Below, piece after piece: positions 8,663 through 63,839 of a stretch of DNA of 64,000 bases. Made by a program: the position numbers and the translations under genes. The stretch's first letter is position 1. Each line of letters starts with the position of its first letter. The notes beneath the pieces were generated by a model. That model was given only the letters and a program-made list of their open reading frames with translations, ran no database searches and was not told where the DNA came from. Source of the DNA: Enterococcus sp. PF1-24 (lineage in GTDB: Bacteria > Bacillota > Bacilli > Lactobacillales > Enterococcaceae); the NCBI RefSeq assembly GCF_029893325.1, contig NZ_JARXWL010000016.1, positions 1 to 64,000 of the forward strand, read 5' to 3'.

Positions 8663-8941
8663 GTGCAAGACAAGCCGCTTGAATTTTCTAATAATCTAGC
8701 TGCGAAACTTTGCACCACTCGATAAAGTGAAGAAGAAATTCGTAGCAACAAAACGCCACTATCATTTATTCTTGCACTTTACTCGGGTGCAGACCAAGTT
8801 TCTCCGCTTTTCTGATGATCTAGCTACGTGGCTTTGCACCACTCGGCAAAGTGATAAATAAATTCGCGGTACAAAACACCGCTATAATTTTTTTATGTAC
8901 TTTGCTCGGGTGCAAGACAAGCCACTTCGCTTTTCTATTAA
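8663..8941. repeat. Tandem 124-bp structured repeat (two full copies plus a partial one)
   Basis: Units at 8695-8818 and 8819-8941 align along their whole length. Each begins TCTAGCT and ends near GCTTTTCT. A partial unit precedes them (8663-8694). Each unit holds nested inverted repeats: GCACC...CAAAGT pairs with ACTTTGCTCGGGTGC, and GCGGT pairs with ACCGC. The array starts exactly at the proS stop codon when read on the minus strand. The same family recurs at 25248. Confidence 0.8.
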
Positions 8942-10377
8942 TAGGCTCTGGCGATCCAGACGGTGTGTTTGGCTGGTTTGCCGCTGACGATGTCGACAGT
9001 TTTTTCCATTGGTGGATTAAATGGAATATTTCGGGTCGTGAAACCTGTTTCTTCTTTGATTTTGGCTTCGGTTTCTTCAGAGCCGTCCCAACCGATTAAA
9101 ACAAAGCCTGGGATTTCGTTAGCGGTTTTTTTCGCTTCAATATGAGCTTTTAAATCATCTAACGTTTCAATATCAAAATATTCATTTTCAGCGTTGCGTT
9201 TTTGAGCAGAAGTTAATAAGCGCGTTTGCATGATTGTTAATTGTTCTTCGACATAAGCAATTAAGTTTTCTAAGCTAACCGCTTCTTTATCGGCTAAATC
9301 TCGCATTTTAACCATTACTTGATTGTTTTCTAAATCTTTTGGTCCGCATTCTACTCGTAATGGGATACCTCGCAGTTCCCATTCGTTAAATTTGAAACCT
9401 GGTGAGTTAGCAGAATCATCAATTTTAACACGAATGTTTTTGGCTTTTAATTCTTCAGCGACGGCTGTTAATTTTTCCATAACTGCTGGATTTTTCTTCC
9501 AAGGACCCATTGGTAGTAGGACAACTTGGGTTGGCGCAATCGCAGGTGGGAAAACTAAGCCTTGCTCGTCGCCATGAGCCATAATTAATGAACCGATTAA
9601 ACGGGTTGAAACTCCCCATGAAGTTGTATGAGTATATTCATGTTTGTTTTCTTTGGTTAAATATTTAATATCAAAGGCTTCCGCAAATTTTGTACCTAAA
9701 TAGTGAGAAGTACCTGCTTGTACGGCTTTACCATCGCGCATCATTGCTTCTACTGAATAAGTGTCAACAGCTCCCGCAAAACGCTCAGATGGTGTTTTTT
9801 GACCGCGGTAAACGGGAATGGCTAAGAAGTTTTCAATCATATCCGCGTATGCTTCTAAAACACTCATAGTTCGTTTGCGAGCATCGGCTTCATTTTCATG
9901 AGCGGTATGACCTTCTTGCCATAAAAATTCTGAAGTTCTTAGGAAAGGTAAAGTTTTCTTTTCCCAGCGAAAAACATTGGCCCATTGGTTAATTTCATAA
10001 GGTAAATCACGATAAGAGTTAATCCAATCGCTAAAAGCCGAACCAATCATAGTTTCAGAAGTTGGTCGTAGCGCTAGTGGTTCTTCTAATTTTTCGTTGC
10101 CGACTTCAGTTACCCAAGGAAGTTCAGGGGCAAAGCCTTCAATGTGTTCTTCTTCTTTTAAAAAGAAACTTTGGGGAATTAATAAAGGAAAGTAAGCATT
10201 GCGAATGCCTTCTTTTTGTAAAAATTTATTAAATTCTCCTTGAATTCTTTCCCATAATTCATAGCCATCTGGTTTGAAAATGATACAGCCGCGAACAGGG
10301 GAATAAGCCATTAAATCAGCTTTTTGAATGGTTTGTAAATACCATTTTGAAAAATCTTCTTTTTGTAAATTTGACAT
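8938..10377 (-). CDS. proS: Prolyl-tRNA synthetase, type 3 (archaeal/eukaryotic-like)
   Basis: This 479-residue class II synthetase charges tRNA-Pro with proline. It shows motif 2 (RWEKKTLPFLRTSEFLWQEGHT) and motif 3 (GVSTRLIGSLIMAHGDEQGL), and it lacks the large editing insertion of bacterial type 1 enzymes. The longer reading frame begins at 10440, but the ATG at 10377 is preferred because CAGGAGG lies 12 bases upstream and the extra residues would be inside the T-box terminator. Most lactic acid bacteria use the longer type 1 enzyme, so this form is notable. Expression is controlled by the T-box upstream. Confidence 0.93.
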   Translation of the reverse strand: MSNLQKEDFSKWYLQTIQKADLMAYSPVRGCIIFKPDGYELWERIQGEFNKFLQKEGIRNAYFPLLIPQSFFLKEEEHIEGFAPELPWVTEVGNEKLEEPLALRPTSETMIGSAFSDWINSYRDLPYEINQWANVFRWEKKTLPFLRTSEFLWQEGHTAHENEADARKRTMSVLEAYADMIENFLAIPVYRGQKTPSERFAGAVDTYSVEAMMRDGKAVQAGTSHYLGTKFAEAFDIKYLTKENKHEYTHTTSWGVSTRLIGSLIMAHGDEQGLVFPPAIAPTQVVLLPMGPWKKNPAVMEKLTAVAEELKAKNIRVKIDDSANSPGFKFNEWELRGIPLRVECGPKDLENNQVMVKMRDLADKEAVSLENLIAYVEEQLTIMQTRLLTSAQKRNAENEYFDIETLDDLKAHIEAKKTANEIPGFVLIGWDGSEETEAKIKEETGFTTRNIPFNPPMEKTVDIVSGKPAKHTVWIARAY

Positions 10378-10422
10378 CTTGTAATAAAGCCTCCTGTAAA
10401 TAAATTTCTTTAAATGAAAATA

Positions 10423-10651
10423 AAAAAACTGCTTCGTCACAAAAGGACGAAACAGTGAGTTTCCGTGGTACCACCTTAATTAATCTTAAACAGTTAAGAT
10501 TCTCTTAATTTCGTTAACGCTGAAAAAGCGTACTGTTTTCACAGTAATCTTCTCTGGTAGGTTCACAAAATAGCGGGCTATTTGCCTTTCAGCCAATGGG
10601 CAAATTCTCTAACAACCATTAAATTGCTACTAATCCAAATGCTAAGCTTCA
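10423..10651 (-). promoter_or_regulatory. T-box riboswitch, proline specifier, controlling proS
   Basis: The minus-strand leader carries the T-box core AAGGTGGTACCACG (10464-10477). It is followed by a terminator whose stem ACTG(T)TTCGTC pairs with GACGAA(G)CAGT, then a T-run (10423-10456). Upstream, stem I has GTGAA-CCT-ACC, which gives a CCU proline specifier at 10559-10561. Uncharged tRNA-Pro should stabilise the antiterminator and allow proS transcription. Confidence 0.93.
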
Positions 10652-10657
10652 ACATAG

Positions 10658-30670: not shown

Positions 30671-30726
30671 TTGAAAAAATTTGAATAAATGATATAGTCA
30701 AAAGAGAAGTCTGAGAATTATTATCA
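30671..30726 (+). promoter_or_regulatory. Promoter with Fur-type box for sufB
   Basis: TTGAAA (30671-30676) and TATAGT (30693-30698) are 16 bp apart. TGAGAATTATTATCA (30712-30726), just past the expected start site, matches the Fur 7-1-7 consensus TGATAATNATTATCA at 14 of 15 positions. Iron-dependent repression is therefore likely. Confidence 0.65.
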
Positions 30727-30796: not shown

Positions 30797-32188
30797 ATGA
30801 CTGTTAAAGCAAGAGATTATCAATATGGTTTTCATGATGAAGTAGAACCGTTATTTACTAGTGGACAAGGTGGTTTAACTCGTGAATTGGTTCAAGAAAT
30901 TTCTGAAATGAAGCAAGAGCCACAATGGATGTTAGATTATCGCTTAAAAGCTTTTGAACTTTTTGAAAAATTACCGTTGCCAAAATGGGGGCCTGATTTA
31001 TCAGAAATCCGTTTTGAAGATGTTATTTATTATCAAAAATTAAACAATGAACCTAGTCGTGACTGGGAGGATGTTCCTGATAAAATTAAGGATACTTTTG
31101 AACGCTTAGGGATTCCCGAAGCTGAAAGAAAATTTTTAGCAGGCGCGGCGGCTCAATATGAATCTGAAGTTGTTTATCATAATATGAAAGAAGAATTTGA
31201 AAATCTAGGAATTGTCTTTTTAGATACCGATAGTGCCTTGAAAGAATATCCTGGTTTGGTGAAAGAATACTTCGGCTCTTTAGTAAAAGCTTCGGAACAT
31301 AAATTTGCGGCTTTAAATGCAGCGATTTGGTCTGGTGGAACTTTTATCTATGTTCCTAAAGGCGTGCAGTGTGATATTCCGATTCAAACTTATTTCCGAA
31401 TCAACGGCGAAAATGCTGGGCAGTTTGAACGCTCTTTAATTATTGTTGATGAAGGAGCTTCTGTTCATTATATTGAAGGCTGTACCGCACCAAGCTATAC
31501 AACTAACAGTTTGCATGCGGCGACTGTCGAAATTATCGTGAAAAAAGATGCTTTTTGTCGCTATACTACGATGCAAAACTGGTCAGATAACGTTTATAAT
31601 TTAGTTACTGAACGGGGCAGTGTTGAAGAAAACGGTATGTTGGAATGGATTGACGGCAATTTAGGTAGTAAAGTCAATATGAAATATCCTTGTACTCATT
31701 TAAATGGACGCAATGCGAAAACTTCTGTTTTATCAATGGCTTTCGCTAATTACGGACAACATTTAGATGCTGGTTGTAAAGTTTATCATAATGCATCACA
31801 AACTTCTAGCACGATTGTTTCAAAATCAGTGGCTAAAGATGGTGGTCGGACAGATTATCGCGGTTCAATTTATTTTGGCAGAGATAGTTCTGGTTCAAAA
31901 TCTCATATTGAGTGTGATACTATTTTAATGGATAATGAATCGAAAGCTGATACAATTCCTTATAACAAAATTTTAAATGGCAACGTAACTTTAGAGCATG
32001 AAGCAAGTGTTTCAAAAGTTTCTGAAGACCAATTATTCTATTTGATGAGTCGTGGGTTAAGTGAAGAAGAAGCCACTGCCATGATTATCAACGGTTTTAT
32101 GAATCCAATCACCAAAGAACTACCGATGGAATACGCCGTGGAATTAAACCAATTGATTACGATGTCAATGGAAGGTTCTGTAGGTTAA
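30797..32188 (+). CDS. sufB: SufB, Fe-S cluster scaffold subunit
   Basis: This 463-residue protein is full-length SufB, which with SufC and SufD builds Fe-S clusters. Typical blocks are [37 protein letters not shown] and [19 protein letters not shown], with the conserved Cys of EGCTAP and [10 protein letters not shown]. In most Bacillota it closes a sufCDSUB operon; here it stands alone between lepB and a terminator, so the partner genes are elsewhere. It could serve the Fe-S-rich hydrogenase encoded about 22 kb away. Confidence 0.95.
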
Positions 32189-35464: not shown

Positions 35465-36091
35465 ATGAAAGATCAGGTTATTCCAAAGGCAACTGTCAAA
35501 CGTTTGCCTTTATATTATCGCTATTTAAGAATTTTGCATAACGCTGGCAAAAAGAAAGTTTCTTCAACTGAATTAAGTGAAGCGGTTCAAGTGGATAGTG
35601 CGACTATTCGCCGAGATTTTTCTTATTTTGGAGAATTAGGTAAAAGAGGCTATGGCTACGACGTTGAAAGCCTAATGAATTTCTTTGCCCGCACGCTAAA
35701 TGATGACCAGTTAACTAATGTGGCTTTAATCGGGGTGGGGAATTTAGGTAGTGCTTTACTGAAATATAAATTCCATCAAAGCAATAGTATTCGGATTAGT
35801 TGTGCCTTCGATATTAATGAAGAAATTATCGGCAGAATCGTTGATGGTGTGCCAGTTTATCCTATGAGTGATATGATTGAACAAATTAAAATTCAACAAA
35901 TTGAAATTGCTATCTTAACTTTACCAGCAGCTAAAGCTCAAGATGTGATGAAACGTTTAGCTGAAGCGGGAATTAAAGGGATTTTAAACTTTACGTCTGC
36001 TCGTTTATCAGCGCCAAAAGATATCTTAGTGCAAAATGTTGATTTAACTAATGAATTGCAAACACTGATTTACTTTTTGCATAACGATTGA
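35465..36091 (+). CDS. rex: Rex, NADH-sensing redox repressor
   Basis: This 208-residue protein has an N-terminal winged helix (about 1-78, with [14 protein letters not shown] and [21 protein letters not shown]) and a Rossmann domain ([15 protein letters not shown], about 87-101). Rex leaves DNA when NADH is high, releasing fermentative and NADH-oxidising genes. In this window the hydrogenase operon is an obvious possible target. AGGGGTA precedes the ATG. Confidence 0.95.
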
Positions 36092-51381: not shown

Positions 51382-51454
51382 TGTTATCGTCTTTGAGTGT
51401 TAAGACTAACATTGCAAAAGCAATCATTAAGCTTAACGTTTCAAAAACAGACAC
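51371..51454 (-). CDS. Type I toxin peptide, TxpA/Fst-like ('putative holin-like toxin')
   Basis: GTG at 51454 with AAAGGAG 8 bases upstream encodes 27 residues: V/MSVFETLSLMIAFAMLVLTL followed by KDDNTKK. The single hydrophobic helix and charged tail match the small membrane toxins annotated as putative holin-like toxins in Bacillota. The stop codon lies inside the terminator stem of the convergent RNA, as in txpA/ratA. It would depolarise the membrane if its mRNA outlived the antisense RNA. Confidence 0.85.
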   Translation of the reverse strand: MSVFETLSLMIAFAMLVLTLKDDNTKK

Positions 51455-51527
51455 ATTCGGCGCTCCTTTCTTTAGGATAATGACTTACTTTCATAAGCAC
51501 CACCTCACTTCTCTAGCTTACATATTC

Positions 51528-51556
51528 ATTATACTATAGATAGTATCGGCTTGCAA
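51528..51556 (-). promoter_or_regulatory. Promoter of the type I toxin
   Basis: TTGCAA (51551-51556) and TATAAT (51528-51533) on the minus strand are exactly 17 bp apart, with a leader of about 65 bases before the toxin start. Confidence 0.8.
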
Positions 51557-52613: not shown

Positions 52614-52628
52614 TGATAATAATTATTC
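52614..52628. promoter_or_regulatory. Fur-like 7-1-7 box upstream of the hydrogenase region
   Basis: TGATAATAATTATTC matches TGATAATNATTATCA at 13 of 15 positions. A terminator separates it from the hydrogenase promoter, so its target is unclear. Confidence 0.4.
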
Positions 52629-52706
52629 TAATTTGCGTTTTTTTTAATAAGTTTTTTATTGAACGACTTGAAAAAAAGTAGTGAAATGCGCTAAATAGTG
52701 GATTGA

Positions 52707-52748
52707 AACTGATTTTTTCTATTTTTTTTAGAAAAAATCAGTTTTTTT
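52707..52748 (+). terminator. Terminator insulating the hydrogenase promoter
   Basis: A 15-bp perfect stem (52707-52721 with 52729-52743) is followed by T to 52748. It lies about 135 bp past the lipoprotein gene. Confidence 0.85.
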
Positions 52749-52859
52749 GTTGGATTTTTCACAAAAAGCAATTAATATTTGTTATAATCTACTTGTTGGA
52801 TGGAAGCGTTTGAATTTACGGATGTCGCGATAATTAGTACTTATTAATAATGATTATTA
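52747..52859 (+). promoter_or_regulatory. Hydrogenase promoter with Rex-like, cre-like and FUR-family sites
   Basis: The extended -10 TGTTATAAT has its box at 52783-52788. The -35 region is covered by an 18-bp Rex-like site (52747-52764) with a perfect right half TTCACAA and a 4/7 left half. TGGAAGCGTTTGAA (52801-52814), just after the start site, is cre-like. The palindrome TAATAATGATTATTA (52845-52859), just before the ribosome site, resembles Fur/PerR boxes (13 of 15 to each consensus). Confidence 0.55.
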
Positions 52860-52881
52860 TTAAAGGAGCGTGAAACAGCAA

Positions 52882-53391
52882 ATGGGTGTTAAGGAAATGG
52901 TTTTTGAATTCATTGAAACGGAAAGCCAAAAGCAAGAGCTTGAAGAGTCTTTAACATTATTGGAGGTGCAAGAAGGTGCTCAGATGCCTGCTTTGCAAGA
53001 AGCACAAAGGATTTATGGGTATTTACCAATAGAAATATTGGAGCGAATTTCTTGCAAGTTGCAAATTCCAGTAGAAGAACTTTATAGTACGGCAACTTTT
53101 TATTCCCAGTTTTCTTTTGTCCCTAAAGGTAAATTTACAATTAGCGTTTGTATGGGGACAGCTTGCTATGTTAAGGGTGCCGGAGATATTTTAGATTCTT
53201 ATGCGCAAGAATTAAATATTAAACCAGGTGAAACAACCGCAGATCGCAAGTTCACTTTAGAATCATGTCGCTGTATTGGTGCCTGTGGGTTAGCGCCAGT
53301 TTTAACGGTTAATGAAGAAGTTTATGGCCGTTTAACCAAGAAAAAAGGCGACAAAGTTCTCGTTACTTATCAAAAAATGGAAGATGAGTAA
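52882..53391 (+). CDS. hydC: NuoE-like [2Fe-2S] subunit of [FeFe] hydrogenase (HydC-type)
   Basis: This 169-residue thioredoxin-fold ferredoxin passes electrons between the flavin subunit and the hydrogenase. Four Cys ligands lie in CMGTACYVKGAG and CRCIGACGLAPV (about 96-150). An AAAGGAG site lies 13 bases before the ATG at 52882; a GTG at 52870 is too close to it. It is the first gene of hydC-hydB-hydA. Confidence 0.9.
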   Translation: MGVKEMVFEFIETESQKQELEESLTLLEVQEGAQMPALQEAQRIYGYLPIEILERISCKLQIPVEELYSTATFYSQFSFVPKGKFTISVCMGTACYVKGAGDILDSYAQELNIKPGETTADRKFTLESCRCIGACGLAPVLTVNEEVYGRLTKKKGDKVLVTYQKMEDE

Positions 53392-53448
53392 AATAGCATG
53401 ACTATCTATTGGTTATAAAACTAGATTGAAATGAGGAGAAAAGAGCAT

Positions 53449-55350
53449 ATGGAAAATTGGGAGCAATTACAAAAATTGCGAAATGTTTATCGGCAGCAAG
53501 TTGTCATGCGCTTAGAAGCAGAGCAAGCTGAAAATAATGAAGACGTTGAACAGCCTAAAAGCCAATTTGAAAAAGAAATTATGATTTGTGCTGGGACTGG
53601 CTGTATTTCTTCAAAAAGTGGAGAATTTACTGAAGCTTTGAAGGAAGAATTAGCGAAACATGAATTGACGGATAAAGTTAATATCGTTTCAACCGGTTGT
53701 TTTGGTTTATGTGCCCAAGGGCCGATTGTAATTATTTATCCTGAAGGTGTCTTCTATCATCAAGTTCAGGCTAAAGATGCTAAAAAAATTGTTGCGCAAC
53801 ATTTAGTTGAAGGTAAATTAGTTGAAAAATTATTGTATCATGATAATGATTCAAAAGAAATTATTAATAAATTGATGGATACGCCATTTTATCAAAAGCA
53901 AAAACGGGTTGCTTTAAGAAACTGTGGCCGAATTGATCCTGAAAAAATGGAAGAATATATCGCTTTTGATGGTTATCAAGCCTTAGCGAAAGTCGTTAAC
54001 AAGTATTCTCGTGATGATGTTTTAGAAATTTTAAAAGCTTCTGGTTTACGAGGACGTGGGGGAGCAGGTTTCCCGACTTTTATGAAATGGTCTTTTGCTA
54101 AAGAAAGCCCAGGTGCGCAAAAATATGTTGTTTGTAATGCCGATGAAGGAGATCCAGGTGCCTTTATGGACCGTTCTGTTTTAGAAGGGGATCCACATGC
54201 GATTATTGAAGCAATGGCGATTGCGGGCTACACGATTGGTGCTAATCAAGGCTATATTTATGTGCGGGCAGAATATCCGATTGCTGTTAAGCGTTTAAGA
54301 ATTGCTATCAAGCAAGCGCGAGAAGCGGGCATTTTAGGTAAAAATATTTTTGGCAGCGATTTCGAATTTGATTTAGATTTACGTTTAGGTGCGGGCGCCT
54401 TTGTTTGTGGTGAAGAAACCGCCTTGTTAGAAAGTATTGAAGGTCGCCGTGGCGAACCACGTCCACGTCCACCGTTCCCAGCGGTAAAAGGTTTGTTTGG
54501 CAAACCAACGATTGTGAATAATGTTGAAACTTATGCCAATATTCCACAAATTATTTTACGTGGCCCTGAATGGTTTGCGAGCATGGGGACTGAAAAATCT
54601 AAAGGAACCAAAGTTTTCGCTTTAGGTGGTAAAATTCAAAATACTGGTTTGGTTGAAATTCCGATGGGGACAACTTTAAGAGAAGTTGTTGAAGATATCG
54701 GTGGCGGTATTCCAAATGGTAAGAAATTTAAAGCCGCTCAAACTGGTGGTCCTTCTGGTGGGTGTATCCCAGTAGAAAATTATGATGTTGCGATTGACTA
54801 TGATAATTTAATCGAAATTGGCTCAATGATGGGTTCAGGCGGTTTAATTGTTATGGACGAAGATAACTGTATGGTTGATATTGCGAAATTCTTCTTAGAG
54901 TTTACCGTGGAAGAAAGTTGCGGAAAATGTGTGCCTTGTCGAGTAGGTACGAAGCGTCTGTTAGAAATTTTAGAAAAAATTACTAGAGGCCAAGCAACTT
55001 TGGAAGATTTAGATAAAATGGTTGATTTATGTCACTATATTAAAGAAAATTCGCTATGTGGTTTAGGGCAAACAGCACCAAATCCAATTCTTTCAACTTA
55101 TCACTATTTTAAAGAAGAATATATTGCCCATGTTGTTGAAAAACGTTGTCCTGCTGGTATTTGTAAAGATTTGATTTCTTATGAAATTATGGAAGACAAA
55201 TGTACTGGTTGTACAGCTTGTGCGAAAAAATGTCCTGTTGCTGCGATTAGCGGAGAAAGAAAAGAACCACATCACATCGACCCAGCTATTTGTATTAAGT
55301 GTGGTCTTTGTGTGGATACTTGCCGCTACAATGCTATCAGTGTCGGATAG
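53449..55350 (+). CDS. hydB: NuoF-like NAD(H)/FMN subunit of [FeFe] hydrogenase (HydB-type)
   Basis: This 633-residue subunit oxidises or reduces NAD(H). Domains in order: N-terminal [2Fe-2S] thioredoxin-like (CAGTGCISS...STGCFGLC, about 47-90), NuoF FMN/NAD core (GLRGRGGAGFPTFMKW and VVCNADEGDPGAF, about 199-240), [4Fe-4S] site SCGKCVPCRVGT (about 487-498), and a C-terminal 2[4Fe-4S] ferredoxin (CTGCTACAKKCP and CIKCGLCVDTCR). This matches bifurcating or NADH-dependent trimeric hydrogenases. ATG at 53449 is used; an upstream in-frame ATG (53431) is inside the AGGAG site. Confidence 0.94.
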   Translation: MENWEQLQKLRNVYRQQVVMRLEAEQAENNEDVEQPKSQFEKEIMICAGTGCISSKSGEFTEALKEELAKHELTDKVNIVSTGCFGLCAQGPIVIIYPEGVFYHQVQAKDAKKIVAQHLVEGKLVEKLLYHDNDSKEIINKLMDTPFYQKQKRVALRNCGRIDPEKMEEYIAFDGYQALAKVVNKYSRDDVLEILKASGLRGRGGAGFPTFMKWSFAKESPGAQKYVVCNADEGDPGAFMDRSVLEGDPHAIIEAMAIAGYTIGANQGYIYVRAEYPIAVKRLRIAIKQAREAGILGKNIFGSDFEFDLDLRLGAGAFVCGEETALLESIEGRRGEPRPRPPFPAVKGLFGKPTIVNNVETYANIPQIILRGPEWFASMGTEKSKGTKVFALGGKIQNTGLVEIPMGTTLREVVEDIGGGIPNGKKFKAAQTGGPSGGCIPVENYDVAIDYDNLIEIGSMMGSGGLIVMDEDNCMVDIAKFFLEFTVEESCGKCVPCRVGTKRLLEILEKITRGQATLEDLDKMVDLCHYIKENSLCGLGQTAPNPILSTYHYFKEEYIAHVVEKRCPAGICKDLISYEIMEDKCTGCTACAKKCPVAAISGERKEPHHIDPAICIKCGLCVDTCRYNAISVG

Positions 55351-55363
55351 GGGGGGACTGTAA

Positions 55364-57118
55364 ATGAAAGAACTTAATATTACTATTAATGGAAAAGCTT
55401 ATACAGCGCCTGAAGGTTCAACAATCTTAGATGCTGTTAGAAGAAATAATATTGATATTCCGACACTTTGTTATTTGAAAGAAATCAATGAAATCGGCGC
55501 ATGTCGGATTTGTGTGGTGGAAGTAAAAGGCAGTCGGAACTTAGTAACCGCTTGTGTGCATCCAATTAGCGAAGGCATGGAAATTGTCACTAACTCAGAA
55601 AAAATCTTTAAATCACGGAAAACTAGCTTAGAGTTAATTTTATCTACTCATAATAAGAAATGTTTATCTTGCGTGCGAAACGGTAATTGTGAGTTGCAAA
55701 AACTTTGTAAGGATTTCGATGTGGAAAATGAAAACCTTTATGAAGGGGAAAATTGTCAATACGAAATTGATAATTCTGCACCGCACATGTACCGCGATAA
55801 TAGTAAATGTATTTTATGTAAGCGATGCGTAGCAGTTTGTTCAAAAGTTCAAGCTGTCGGCGTGATTGGCGCCAATGACCGTGGTTTTAATACCCACATC
55901 GGTTGTGCTTTTGAGCAAGAATTAGGTAGTTCTGCTTGTATTTCTTGTGGTCAATGTATTGTCGCCTGCCCAACTGGCGCGCTTTCTGAAAAAGACCACA
56001 CGAAAGAAGTTTGGCAAGTTTTAGCAGATTCTACTAAACATGTGGTTGTTCAAACTGCACCATCTATTCGGGTGACTTTAGGAGAATCTTTCAATATGCC
56101 AATTGGCACAAATGTTGAAGGAAAAATGGTCGCGGCTTTACGACGTTTAGGTTTTGATCAAGTCTTTGATACAAACGTTGCTGCTGACTTTACTATTATG
56201 GAAGAAGCCAATGAGTTTGTATCTCGCGTGCAAAATGATGGACCATTCCCATTGTTAACTTCTTGTTCACCAGGTTGGATTAATTATTGTGAAGCTTATC
56301 ATCCAGAATTAATTCCTAACCTTTCAAGTTGTAAATCTCCACAACAAATGTTCGGAGCTTTAACAAAAACTTGGTATGCGGAAAAAATGAATATTGATCC
56401 GAAAGATATTTGTGTCGTTAGTATCATGCCATGTACAGCTAAAAAAGCCGAAGTAACACGGGAAGATGAAGCAGCTGCTGGTGTTCCTGATGTGGATGTA
56501 GTTTTAACAACCAGAGAATTAGCACGCATGATTGATAAGGCTGGGATTCGCTTTACTGAATTGGAAGATGAGATCTTTGATAATCCTTTAGGGGACGCAA
56601 CTGGTGCTGGTTATATTTTTGGAGCAACTGGTGGAGTAACAGAAGCGGCATTAAGAACAGCTGGCGAAATTATTGCTGGTGAGCCTTTAGCTGAAATTGA
56701 ATTTGCTGAAGTTCGTGGGATGAAAGGTATTAAAGAAGCAACTTATGAAATTAATGGGACTACTATTAAAGTCGCAGTCGCTTCAGGAATTACCAACGCT
56801 AAACATTTAATTGAAAAAATTCAAGCAGGTGAAGATTTCTATCACTTTGTTGAAATTATGGGTTGCCCAGGCGGTTGTATTAACGGTGGTGGCCAACCAA
56901 TTCAACCTGCATCTGTACGAAATTTTGTTAATTTAAGTGCCAAACGGGCGGCTGCTCTTTATGCAGAAGATCAAGAACGCCAAATTAGACGTTCAAATGA
57001 AAGTCCGATTGTGAAAGAAGTTTATCAAGAATATTTAGGAGAACCAGGTAGTGAAAGAGCACATCATATTTTACACACCACATATCAAGCTCGTTCACAA
57101 TATTCAACGGTTTCTTAA
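55364..57118 (+). CDS. hydA: [FeFe] hydrogenase catalytic subunit (HydA)
   Basis: This 584-residue enzyme makes or oxidises H2. N-terminal [2Fe-2S] (CYLKEINEIGACRIC), His/Cys [4Fe-4S] (HNKKCLSCVRNGNC), two [4Fe-4S] (CILCKRCVAVCSK, CISCGQCIVACP), then the H-cluster domain: L1 TSCSPGW (about 299-305), L2 MPCTAKKAE (about 355-363), L3 MGCPGGCINGGGQP (about 498-511). L1 reads TSCSP where the reference motif is TSCCP. The maturases HydE, HydF and HydG are not in the window. Such an enzyme is unusual for a lactic acid bacterium. Confidence 0.95.
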   Translation: MKELNITINGKAYTAPEGSTILDAVRRNNIDIPTLCYLKEINEIGACRICVVEVKGSRNLVTACVHPISEGMEIVTNSEKIFKSRKTSLELILSTHNKKCLSCVRNGNCELQKLCKDFDVENENLYEGENCQYEIDNSAPHMYRDNSKCILCKRCVAVCSKVQAVGVIGANDRGFNTHIGCAFEQELGSSACISCGQCIVACPTGALSEKDHTKEVWQVLADSTKHVVVQTAPSIRVTLGESFNMPIGTNVEGKMVAALRRLGFDQVFDTNVAADFTIMEEANEFVSRVQNDGPFPLLTSCSPGWINYCEAYHPELIPNLSSCKSPQQMFGALTKTWYAEKMNIDPKDICVVSIMPCTAKKAEVTREDEAAAGVPDVDVVLTTRELARMIDKAGIRFTELEDEIFDNPLGDATGAGYIFGATGGVTEAALRTAGEIIAGEPLAEIEFAEVRGMKGIKEATYEINGTTIKVAVASGITNAKHLIEKIQAGEDFYHFVEIMGCPGGCINGGGQPIQPASVRNFVNLSAKRAAALYAEDQERQIRRSNESPIVKEVYQEYLGEPGSERAHHILHTTYQARSQYSTVS

Positions 57119-57192: not shown

Positions 57193-57738
57193 TTATTCTT
57201 TTGGCTTAGGAAGGGCACTTTTTACGATTGGCAATACCACAACAGCTAGGGCGCCACCGATTAGAGCGGTGATTAATTGTGGTGTTGAAAACATTGCTGA
57301 CATTTTAGCAGCTTGAGGCGCTGGTAATTTTGTTAAAACAACTGGAATCATAAATTTGACGATACTTAAGTAAAGTACACCGAATTTCACAACAGCTGCT
57401 ACAATCGCTGCAATAACAGTATTGACAACATTGTTTTCTTTCGTTTTGCCGGCAATTAAATACCAAACAAGCGATAAGCTAGCATTTCCTAAAGCAATAC
57501 AGATAATAATTTGCCACATCTGTGGTCCAATCCCGAAGAAAAATGCGAAGATTGGTGATAATAAAGCGACTGTTAAGCCGCTGGTTAAGCCTGAGATACA
57601 GACAGAAACAATCAAAATCAGATTTACCAATGACCCAGTAATAAAAGTATTTCCAAATCCTGAAGTTACTGCTTGGGTAGCGACTAATAGCGCTAACATT
57701 AAAGCGGTTTGTGTAATCCATAATGCCTTACGATTCAT
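57193..57738 (-). CDS. ECF-type transporter S component (substrate unknown)
   Basis: This 181-residue protein has five to six membrane helices and the N-terminal ALMLALLVATQAVTSGFGNTFITGSLVNLILIV typical of ECF substrate-binding subunits. No energising EcfA/T genes are nearby, which is common because they are shared. GAAGGAA precedes the ATG. Convergent with hydA; a metal or cofactor for the hydrogenase is a possible substrate, but that is a guess from position. Confidence 0.75.
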   Translation of the reverse strand: MNRKALWITQTALMLALLVATQAVTSGFGNTFITGSLVNLILIVSVCISGLTSGLTVALLSPIFAFFFGIGPQMWQIIICIALGNASLSLVWYLIAGKTKENNVVNTVIAAIVAAVVKFGVLYLSIVKFMIPVVLTKLPAPQAAKMSAMFSTPQLITALIGGALAVVVLPIVKSALPKPKE

Positions 57739-57784: not shown

Positions 57785-57869
57785 TTGCTCAAATATTCAC
57801 AAATAAAACTGAAAATAAAATAGTTCATAGAACCACCTTAATGATAACGCTTTTTTGATGAAGTTGCAA
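57785..57869 (-). promoter_or_regulatory. Promoter of the ECF gene with cre-like and Rex-like sites
   Basis: On the minus strand TTGCAA (57864-57869) and TATCAT (57841-57846) are 17 bp apart. AAAAAGCGTTATCA (57842-57855) fits the cre consensus at 12 of 14. TTGTGAATATTTGAGCAA (57785-57802) in the leader has one perfect Rex half-site. The weaker sites could be chance in AT-rich DNA. Confidence 0.45.
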
Positions 57870-62260: not shown

Positions 62261-62307
62261 CAGAAGGTAAGACTAAATTATTTTCTGTGATAGAAAGAAG
62301 GAATAGT

Positions 62308-63231
62308 ATGGGTAGATATGCATATGCAGAAAAAGAGATGTCTTCAGAAGCAAAGAAGATGCGTGATATTTTAGTGGAATATATCACAGTTGTTGGTAGA
62401 AGATTACCTGATGATGTAACGAAAAAATTGGAAGAATTAGCAAAAATTGAAGTAGAACCTTTGCAACAACTCGTTTATGACACGATGAAAGAAAATCAAA
62501 TGTTAGCAGAAGAGTTAAATAGACCAAGTTGTCAAGACACTGGTGCATTACAGTTTTTTGTTAAATGTGGTACGAACTTTCCTTTATTAGCTGAACTAAA
62601 TGATATTTTAAAAGAAGCTGTATATCTAGCTACTAAAAAAGCACCGCTACGCCACAATGCAGTACAAACATTTGATGAATATAATACTGGATTAAATATT
62701 GGAACCGGTATACCTACAGTTTTTACTGAAATTGATGGGGATAGTGATATTCTGGAGATGTATGTTTACATGGCTGGTGGTGGTTGTAGTTTACCAGGAG
62801 CAGCAAAGGTTTTAATGCCAGGTGAAGGCTATGAAGGTGTTGTTCGATTTGTAATGGATCAAATGACTAGTTATGGCATTAATGCTTGTCCACCGTTATT
62901 AGTAGGGATTGGAATTGGTACCTCTGTGGAAACAGCTTCTATGAATTCTAAATTAGCTTTGATGCGTGAAGTTGGAAGTGTTAGTCCAAATGAAAATGCT
63001 GCTAAGATGGAAAAGTTGTTAGAAGATGGTATCAATAATATTGGTTTAGGTCCTCAAGGCTTTGGTGGCAAAAAATCGGTTATGGGTGTTAACATTATTA
63101 ATACAGGACGTCATCCTTCTGTAATTGGAGTTGCAGTTAATGTAGGTTGTTGGTCACATCGTCGTGGGAAAATTATTTTTGACAGTCAATTGAATTATGA
63201 ATTACCATTACACGAAGGAGTAGAGCTATGA
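62308..63231 (+). CDS. ttdA: L(+)-tartrate dehydratase, alpha subunit
   Basis: This 307-residue protein belongs to the class I fumarase / tartrate dehydratase alpha family. Its sequence follows E. coli TtdA closely: RLPDDVTKKLEEL, LNRPSCQDTGALQFFVK (Cys cluster ligand, about 75), APLRHNAVQTFDEYNTG, MAGGGCSLPGAAKVLMP and NVGCWSHRRG. The three Cys bind a [4Fe-4S] cluster that removes water from tartrate to give oxaloacetate. ATG at 62308 with AAGAAGGAA is preferred over 62287. A class I fumarase role cannot be excluded. Confidence 0.9.
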   Translation: MGRYAYAEKEMSSEAKKMRDILVEYITVVGRRLPDDVTKKLEELAKIEVEPLQQLVYDTMKENQMLAEELNRPSCQDTGALQFFVKCGTNFPLLAELNDILKEAVYLATKKAPLRHNAVQTFDEYNTGLNIGTGIPTVFTEIDGDSDILEMYVYMAGGGCSLPGAAKVLMPGEGYEGVVRFVMDQMTSYGINACPPLLVGIGIGTSVETASMNSKLALMREVGSVSPNENAAKMEKLLEDGINNIGLGPQGFGGKKSVMGVNIINTGRHPSVIGVAVNVGCWSHRRGKIIFDSQLNYELPLHEGVEL

Positions 63232-63839
63232 AAGAATATCATTTAAAAACACCAATTTCAGCAGAAGATATTAAAAATATTCGCATTGGAGATATCGTTT
63301 ATTTAGAAGGAACATTAGTAACTTGTCGTGATGTTGCCCATCGTCGTGTTGTAGAAGAAGGATTGACATTACCAGTTGATGTACGTGATAAAGCAATTTT
63401 ACATGCAGGGCCAATTGTTAAAGATCATGGAAATAATCACTATGAAATGATTTCAGTTGGACCTACTACAAGTATGCGGATGGAAAAATTTGAAGAGGAA
63501 TTTATTAAGGAAACAGGAGTCCGCTTAATTGTTGGAAAAGGTGGAATGGGTGTCAATACGGAAAAAGGTTGCAAAGAACATAAAGCCATTCACCTTGTTT
63601 ATCCAGCAGGGAATGCGGTTTATGCGGCTGAAAAGGTTGAAGAAATTGTAGATGCTCAATGGAAAGATTTAGGTATGCCTGAAACACTTTGGGTAAATGA
63701 AGTGAAAAATTACGGACCACTAATTGTATCCATAGATACACTGGGTCAAAATTTATTTGAAATTAATAAAATTGAATTTAACAAAAGAAAAGAAGAGGAA
63801 ATTGAGAAGATTTGTAAAGAAGTGCGCTTTATTAAATAA
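63228..63839 (+). CDS. ttdB: L(+)-tartrate dehydratase, beta subunit
   Basis: This 203-residue protein matches TtdB along its whole length: GDIVYLEGTLVTCRDVAHRR (about 23-42), AILHAGPIVKDHGN, SVGPTTSMRMEKFEEEF and VGKGGMGVNTEKGCK. It overlaps ttdA by four bases (ATGA), so the two subunits are made together. Confidence 0.9.
   Translation: MKEYHLKTPISAEDIKNIRIGDIVYLEGTLVTCRDVAHRRVVEEGLTLPVDVRDKAILHAGPIVKDHGNNHYEMISVGPTTSMRMEKFEEEFIKETGVRLIVGKGGMGVNTEKGCKEHKAIHLVYPAGNAVYAAEKVEEIVDAQWKDLGMPETLWVNEVKNYGPLIVSIDTLGQNLFEINKIEFNKRKEEEIEKICKEVRFIK

Follow-up and report, generated by a model that had tools for sequence, protein, structure and literature searches.

Known regulation of related hydrogenase operons and the enterococcal locus

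Hydrogenase and maturase operons of thermophilic clostridia (C. thermocellum, Thermoanaerobacterium) are known or predicted targets of the redox-sensing repressor Rex (PMC8457756, PMC5886521). C. thermocellum Rex also has the gene of an energy-coupling factor transport protein among its targets. In C. difficile, CcpA was found by ChIP-on-chip to bind the hymB operon in vivo (PMC3510511), and the Fe-S hydrogenase branch, for which a potential Fur box was described, falls at low iron (PMC6311696). Our literature search found no paper on the enterococcal hydCBA operon.

We analysed such an operon in a 64-kb stretch of DNA from Enterococcus sp. PF1-24 (hereafter the window; 64,000 nucleotides), whose genome (G000, Enterococcaceae) comprises 2.89 Mb in 74 contigs. 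We interpret the segment 52747-52882 as promoter plus leader of the operon hydC-hydB-hydA, which has the following genes:

52882-53391, plus strand: hydC, NuoE-like subunit (NCBIfam NuoE/HoxE models; start aligned with relatives)
53431-55350, plus strand: hydB, NuoF-like FMN/NADH subunit (NCBIfam nuoF_fam; Pfam Complex1_51K and NADH_4Fe-4S)
55364-57118, plus strand: hydA, [FeFe]-hydrogenase-like subunit (NCBIfam FeFe_hydrog_A6, 891 bits, cut-off 765)

The three-subunit layout, with NuoE-, NuoF- and HydA-type proteins in one operon, is kept in 21 genomes. Translation of hydC probably starts at ATG 52882 rather than at GTG 52870 of the listed open reading frame, since its M-G-V-K-E matches the M-S-V-K-E of the relatives.

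Several traits of the described systems recur at this locus. As in the thermophilic clostridia, a Rex site precedes hydrogenase genes (PMC8457756, PMC5886521), and the energy-coupling factor (ECF) gene beside the enterococcal operon recalls the C. thermocellum target. The clostridial operons are of other types, however, and Rex there also controls the maturase gene hydG, which is absent from the enterococci; stacking of a cre and a Fur box is not reported in the accessible parts of either paper (PMC8457756, PMC5886521). The enterococcal cre resembles the CcpA binding at the hymABC-type operon of C. difficile (PMC3510511), but the C. difficile site lies inside the operon, is of the C. difficile type and has no expression change on record, whereas the enterococcal cre is classical and lies at the start site. 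The iron-responsive C. difficile genes are hydN1-hydA-hydN2, different from the enterococcal hydrogenase genes (PMC6311696). Among solved structures, the closest relative of HydA is A. woodii HydA1 (7q4v), and the likeness to A. woodii HydABC extends over full-length HydA, its L1 motif TSCSPGW and the NuoE-, NuoF- and HydA-type subunits; unlike A. woodii, the enterococcal clade carries the L3 motif MGCPGGC in genomes without HydE, HydF and HydG. As single inputs, Rex and CcpA are of kinds already known. What would be new is their stacking in one enterococcal promoter, together with lineage-specific losses, one genus lacking the cre and another the upstream Fur box.

For the comparison, 106 genomes of the family were searched for the first operon gene, hydC, which was found in 22 of them, belonging to four genera (operon-bearing enterococcal genomes: G000, G001, G014, G027 and G062-G118, 22 genomes). 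Twenty-one hydCBA promoters, that of the window and 20 from other Enterococcaceae, were aligned on the -10 element. Because congeneric genomes are not independent of each other, the effective sample is four genera (g1, g9, g11 and g14), of which g11 includes E. raffinosus, E. malodoratus and E. devriesei. Matrix ranking covered the 63,983 positions of the 64-kb window, and genome-wide ranking was performed by pattern searches.

Promoter architecture and the Rex and CcpA sites

The first-pass annotation had proposed that the hydrogenase leader combines redox, carbon and iron signals through four sites, all of which lie where it had placed them. Across the aligned promoters the elements follow one order, namely a Fur box, a Rex operator over the -35 region, an extended -10 and a cre, with the Fur box and the cre depending on lineage. 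In the window the features are:

52614-52628, plus strand: second Fur-like box TGATAATAATTATTC, doubtful, behind the terminator (12/14)
52705-52745, plus strand: intrinsic-terminator-like hairpin of the upstream transcript (17-pair stem plus T run)
52747-52764, plus strand: Rex operator TTGTTGGATTTTTCACAA over the -35 region (10/12 to TTGTGA-N6-TCACAA)
52780-52788, plus strand: extended -10 TGTTATAAT, with TATAAT at 52783-52788 (sequence and alignment)
52801-52814, plus strand: cre TGGAAGCGTTTGAA at the start site (11/13)
52845-52859, plus strand: Fur-family-like palindrome TAATAATGATTATTA before the ribosome site, candidate only (12/14)
52862-52868, plus strand: ribosome site AAAGGAG (sequence)

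The Rex gene and a sufB gene with a Fur box, both annotated earlier in the same window, were likewise recovered:

30712-30726, plus strand: Fur box TGAGAATTATTATCA of sufB, control site (13/14, best Fur match in the window)
30797-32188, plus strand: sufB (NCBIfam sufB, 726 bits)
35465-36091, plus strand: rex, redox-sensing repressor (NCBIfam Rex, 339.6 bits, cut-off 177)

In addition to Rex, the window genome encodes CcpA (548.9 bits versus a cut-off of 442), Fur (L002, above the cut-off of the NCBIfam Fur model), a PerR-like protein whose best match is PerR at a score under the PerR model's cut-off, and a third Fur-family protein.

All 21 aligned hyd promoters carry TGN followed by a TATAAT-like hexamer, and a generic promoter scan missed the hyd promoter because it relies on this extended -10. 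Intrinsic-terminator-like hairpins numbered one (52705-52745) against 0.1 expected. The hyd leader RNA folds no better than shuffled sequences and gave no riboswitch and no Rfam match; a translational switch at the 52845 palindrome was dropped on these grounds. In one g9 genome (L110), the leader from the -10 to hydC is about 190 bp longer than in its relatives; the promoter block is intact, and the extra length looks like the insertion of an element after the cre. An Rfam match to the Listeria sRNA rli28 was observed at 51384-51543, minus strand (57.9 bits, gathering 45), some 1.2 kb 5' of the window's hyd promoter.

We consider the best explanation to be a hydCBA promoter with a Rex operator and a cre, to which an upstream Fur box would be added in the promoter family only (probability roughly 0.78). 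At high NAD+, Rex would block RNA polymerase, and it would leave at high NADH; in the presence of a preferred sugar, CcpA would block at the start site, and the operon would be on in NADH-rich cells without preferred sugar. A single promoter would read NADH and sugar and, in most of the relatives, also iron; its Rex spacing is base-exact over several genera.

The first-pass annotation had regarded each site as weak alone, and the counts agree. Patterns within two mismatches of the Rex consensus occur 195 times in the whole genome versus 183 times in the reversed control, so the Rex site would not be credible on its own, and the window count of cre-like 14-mers reaching 11/13 stays at background level (45 versus 44). 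Such background levels are what chance matches in AT-rich DNA would give for Rex and cre singly, but the joint occurrence of the sites argues against this reading. With thresholds of 10/12 for Rex, 11/13 for cre and 12/14 for Fur, shuffles of the segment 52740-52881 (n=4000) reached the threshold singly in 26 (Rex), 458 (cre) and 11 (Fur) cases, whereas at least two sites were present in 5/4000 and all three in 0/4000. At these thresholds the 64-kb window contains 5 Rex, 45 cre and 4 Fur sites, and the hyd promoter is its sole Rex, cre and Fur triple inside 150 bp. Because the triple is unique in 64 kb and was reached by no shuffle, the three sites together are more than chance; as the spacing is also exact across genera and the Rex site takes rank 1 with the relatives' matrix, chance matches are a very improbable account.

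In the alignment, the 18-mer slot starting exactly 36 nt before the -10 has at least 8/12 matches to the Rex consensus in 18 of the 21 promoters, and it stands out among 190 offsets (z=6.7, window genus excluded). In the window the Rex-like site begins 36 nt upstream of TATAAT, in line with its proposed position over the -35 region. Of the 63,983 window positions, 52747 is the best match (20.0 bits versus 13.8 for the next) to a Rex matrix derived from relatives outside the window genus. It is this conservation across relatives that lifts the Rex site and the cre above chance. Moreover, since redox and iron genes are among those fronted by the best own-genome matches of the Rex and Fur consensus motifs, both motifs are taken to be valid in the window genome; in the case of Rex, the genes are adhE, those of lactaldehyde reductase and an H2O-forming NADH oxidase, and a NirB-like gene. 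G001, the sole congener recovered, carries the cre and has no Rex operator in the slot (6/12), so the Rex site can be lost.

Operators of Rex and of Crp/Fnr-family proteins look alike, the inner TGTGA-N6-TCACA being common to both motif types. The TTGT-N10-ACAA of the hyd promoter might consequently be recognised by ArcR or another Crp/Fnr-family protein, either in place of Rex or besides it. In the hyd promoters, however, the outer TTG..CAA is kept while the inner left-half bases vary, and the best own-genome matches precede Rex-typical redox enzymes, adhE and NADH oxidase among them, which makes a Crp/Fnr-family reader unlikely. Predicted control of the window hyd promoter by Rex is well supported.

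The cre is present in all 12 promoters of g1, g9 and g14, the window included. In the other 11 of these it scores 12-13/13 and lies 11-21 nt after the -10 start, with two g9 genomes reaching 13/13; no cre was found after the -10 in the g11 promoters. The window cre, an 11/13 match at the start site, is weaker than those of the relatives (matrix rank 5 in the window), and a genome-wide search for the exact cre consensus yielded 2 matches, below the control, which left genome-wide cre ranking uninformative. With the cre kept in relatives of three genera, CcpA is a well supported candidate regulator of the window promoter. The redox and carbon inputs of the original proposal are borne out to this extent, by position-exact conservation across genera and by the presence of genes for both regulators.

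Putative Fur boxes in the promoter family and candidate sites in the window genome

Outside the window genus, 18 of 19 promoters carry a Fur-type palindrome 5' of the Rex site. Its position relative to the -10 is -69/-68 in g9 and g14 and -58 in g11, and the shift between -69 and -58 amounts to 11 bp, about one helical turn. Across 14 genomes the form TGAGAA-N3-TTCTCA is 13-fold enriched (39 occurrences versus 3 in the control); it fronts feoA in six cases and iron-siderophore ABC genes in seven, with one feoA and one binding protein identified by Pfam and the rest by the same sequence. The occurrence of the same form in front of feoA and iron-siderophore genes identifies the upstream palindrome of the relatives as a putative Fur box, and at the level of the promoter family predicted control by Fur is supported.

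Fur of the relatives might be an ordinary repressor, in which case the hyd operon would be induced by iron starvation. Identical boxes at feoA and the siderophore ABC genes are presumably repressor sites, which favours this possibility, but at the hyd promoters the box is found 5' of the Rex operator, beyond the core promoter, and occupies two positions about a helical turn apart. Furthermore, the Fe-S hydrogenase branch of C. difficile goes down at low iron (PMC6311696). Ordinary repression appears a serious possibility, with the odds leaning against it. For an upstream family box shifted by about one turn, an activator or a repressor acting through a loop would be a better fit than simple blocking, and the phase-keeping shift is compatible with a Fur activator while being no proof of one. 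The distinction bears on the first-pass rationale that an iron signal makes biological sense for an Fe-rich enzyme: since a simple Fur repressor would raise this enzyme in iron starvation, opposite to the rationale, the latter would require an activating Fur or some other mode of Fur action.

In the window promoter, no Fur box was found at -58 or -69, and the terminator-like hairpin lies there instead. Genome-wide, patterns within two mismatches of the Fur consensus are 2.8-fold enriched (125 versus 45 in the control), and feoA, a siderophore-type ABC divergon and sufB are among the loci preceded by the best own-genome matches. With a matrix of the iron-gene sites of this genome, the 52845 palindrome takes rank 2 in the window (11.3 versus 18.5 bits for sufB), but with a matrix of own and relatives' sites it falls to rank 13. 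It also lacks the G at position 2 and the C at position 14, both of which are carried by all iron-gene boxes found. The 52614 box ranks 6 with the own iron genes or 14 with the relatives included; it lies 5' of the terminator-like hairpin at 52705-52745 and probably belongs to the upstream gene's 3' UTR.

The 52845 palindrome may be no Fur site at all, being instead a PerR site or having no regulatory role. The missing G2/C14 pair, the rank of 13, a location outside the family position and the PerR-like protein encoded in the genome point in this direction; on the other side stand its 12/14 match to the Fur consensus, a quality seen in only 11 of 4000 shuffles, and its place as the second-best window match to the own iron-gene boxes. 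On balance, we regard a non-Fur nature of this palindrome as slightly favoured. If Fur does act in the window genome, the weak box after the start site and the one behind the terminator might replace the missing family box. Because they are displaced, have lost the symmetrical G/C pair and hold low matrix ranks, these two weak sites are only candidates, and Fur control in the window species is possible, yet uncertain. The iron input of the original proposal can thus be upheld for the promoter family, whose upstream box is of the iron-uptake type, whereas for the window itself it remains at the level of two candidate sites.

The hydrogenase-like enzyme, the missing maturases and neighbouring genes

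By homology, the enzyme is related to electron-bifurcating NADH/ferredoxin hydrogenases. In HydA, the L1 motif TSCSPGW has Ser in place of CpI Cys300, as in A. woodii HydA1, L2 is intact, and L3 reads MGCPGGC for MACPGGC, with Gly replacing Ala. L1-L3, including the Ser at the second L1 position, and most of the tested residues round the diiron site show no variation among 21 enterococci. TSCSPGW was considered as proof of inactivity and rejected, as the motif of A. woodii HydA1 is identical. In the congener G001, HydA (L167) has Phe for a conserved ferredoxin-domain Cys (KFILC versus KCILC) and the ECF gene is split into two open reading frames, which together hint at decay or sequence error.

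According to one report, the H-cluster requires the maturases (PMC6212873). Profile searches of six-frame translations detected no HydG in the window genome and no HydE, HydF or HydG in any of the 22 operon-bearing enterococcal genomes, two of which are single-contig, while all three proteins were present in a control genome with a different HydA (G008). Matches to the HydF model occurred in all genomes, but they covered the GTPase domain only (approximately positions 3-182 of 392) at scores below the family cut-off and were not accepted as HydF. A genome of another family (G043) likewise has a HydA without HydE, HydF and HydG. Because the known maturases are missing, the operon carries the hydrogenase name by homology only. 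The first-pass picture of an Fe-rich, NADH-consuming hydrogenase is accordingly weaker than supposed.

Next to hydA, on the opposite strand, we identified:

57193-57738, minus strand: ECF transporter S-component gene, convergent to hydA (Pfam PF12822)
57785-57802, minus strand: Rex-like site in the ECF gene leader (9/12, weak in the window)

The ECF gene adjoins hydA in 19 of 21 genomes. Its leader carries a 12/12 Rex site in three g9 relatives (L182, L183 and L185) and a 10-11/12 site in several others, and the window site at 57785 is the third-best window match of the hyd-promoter Rex matrix. Comparison of the ECF protein with solved structures revealed no relative. The hyd and ECF genes of most g9 and g14 genomes are followed by a flavodoxin gene and by two genes judged by eye to be NfnA/NfnB-like (loci L182, L183, L185, L186 and L177-L181), and this neighbourhood suggests a linked low-potential electron metabolism.

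HydABC, kept under predicted Rex, CcpA and Fur control and with a nearly invariant diiron pocket in genomes without HydE, HydF and HydG, may depend on an undescribed maturation route or may carry a different cofactor, and the Rex-co-regulated ECF transporter would supply what is needed. We put this forward tentatively, at a little under even odds. If true, an enzyme with a different cofactor would not turn over hydrogen but catalyse another NADH/ferredoxin (or flavodoxin) reaction. A conserved and regulated hydrogenase-like enzyme without the known H-cluster assembly proteins makes alternative maturation or different chemistry testable.

Elsewhere in the window, a T-box leader (10440-10652, minus strand) was observed in front of the gene at 8938-10440, and genes for a two-subunit fumarase of the iron-sulfur type (62287-63839, plus strand) follow an AraC-type regulator.
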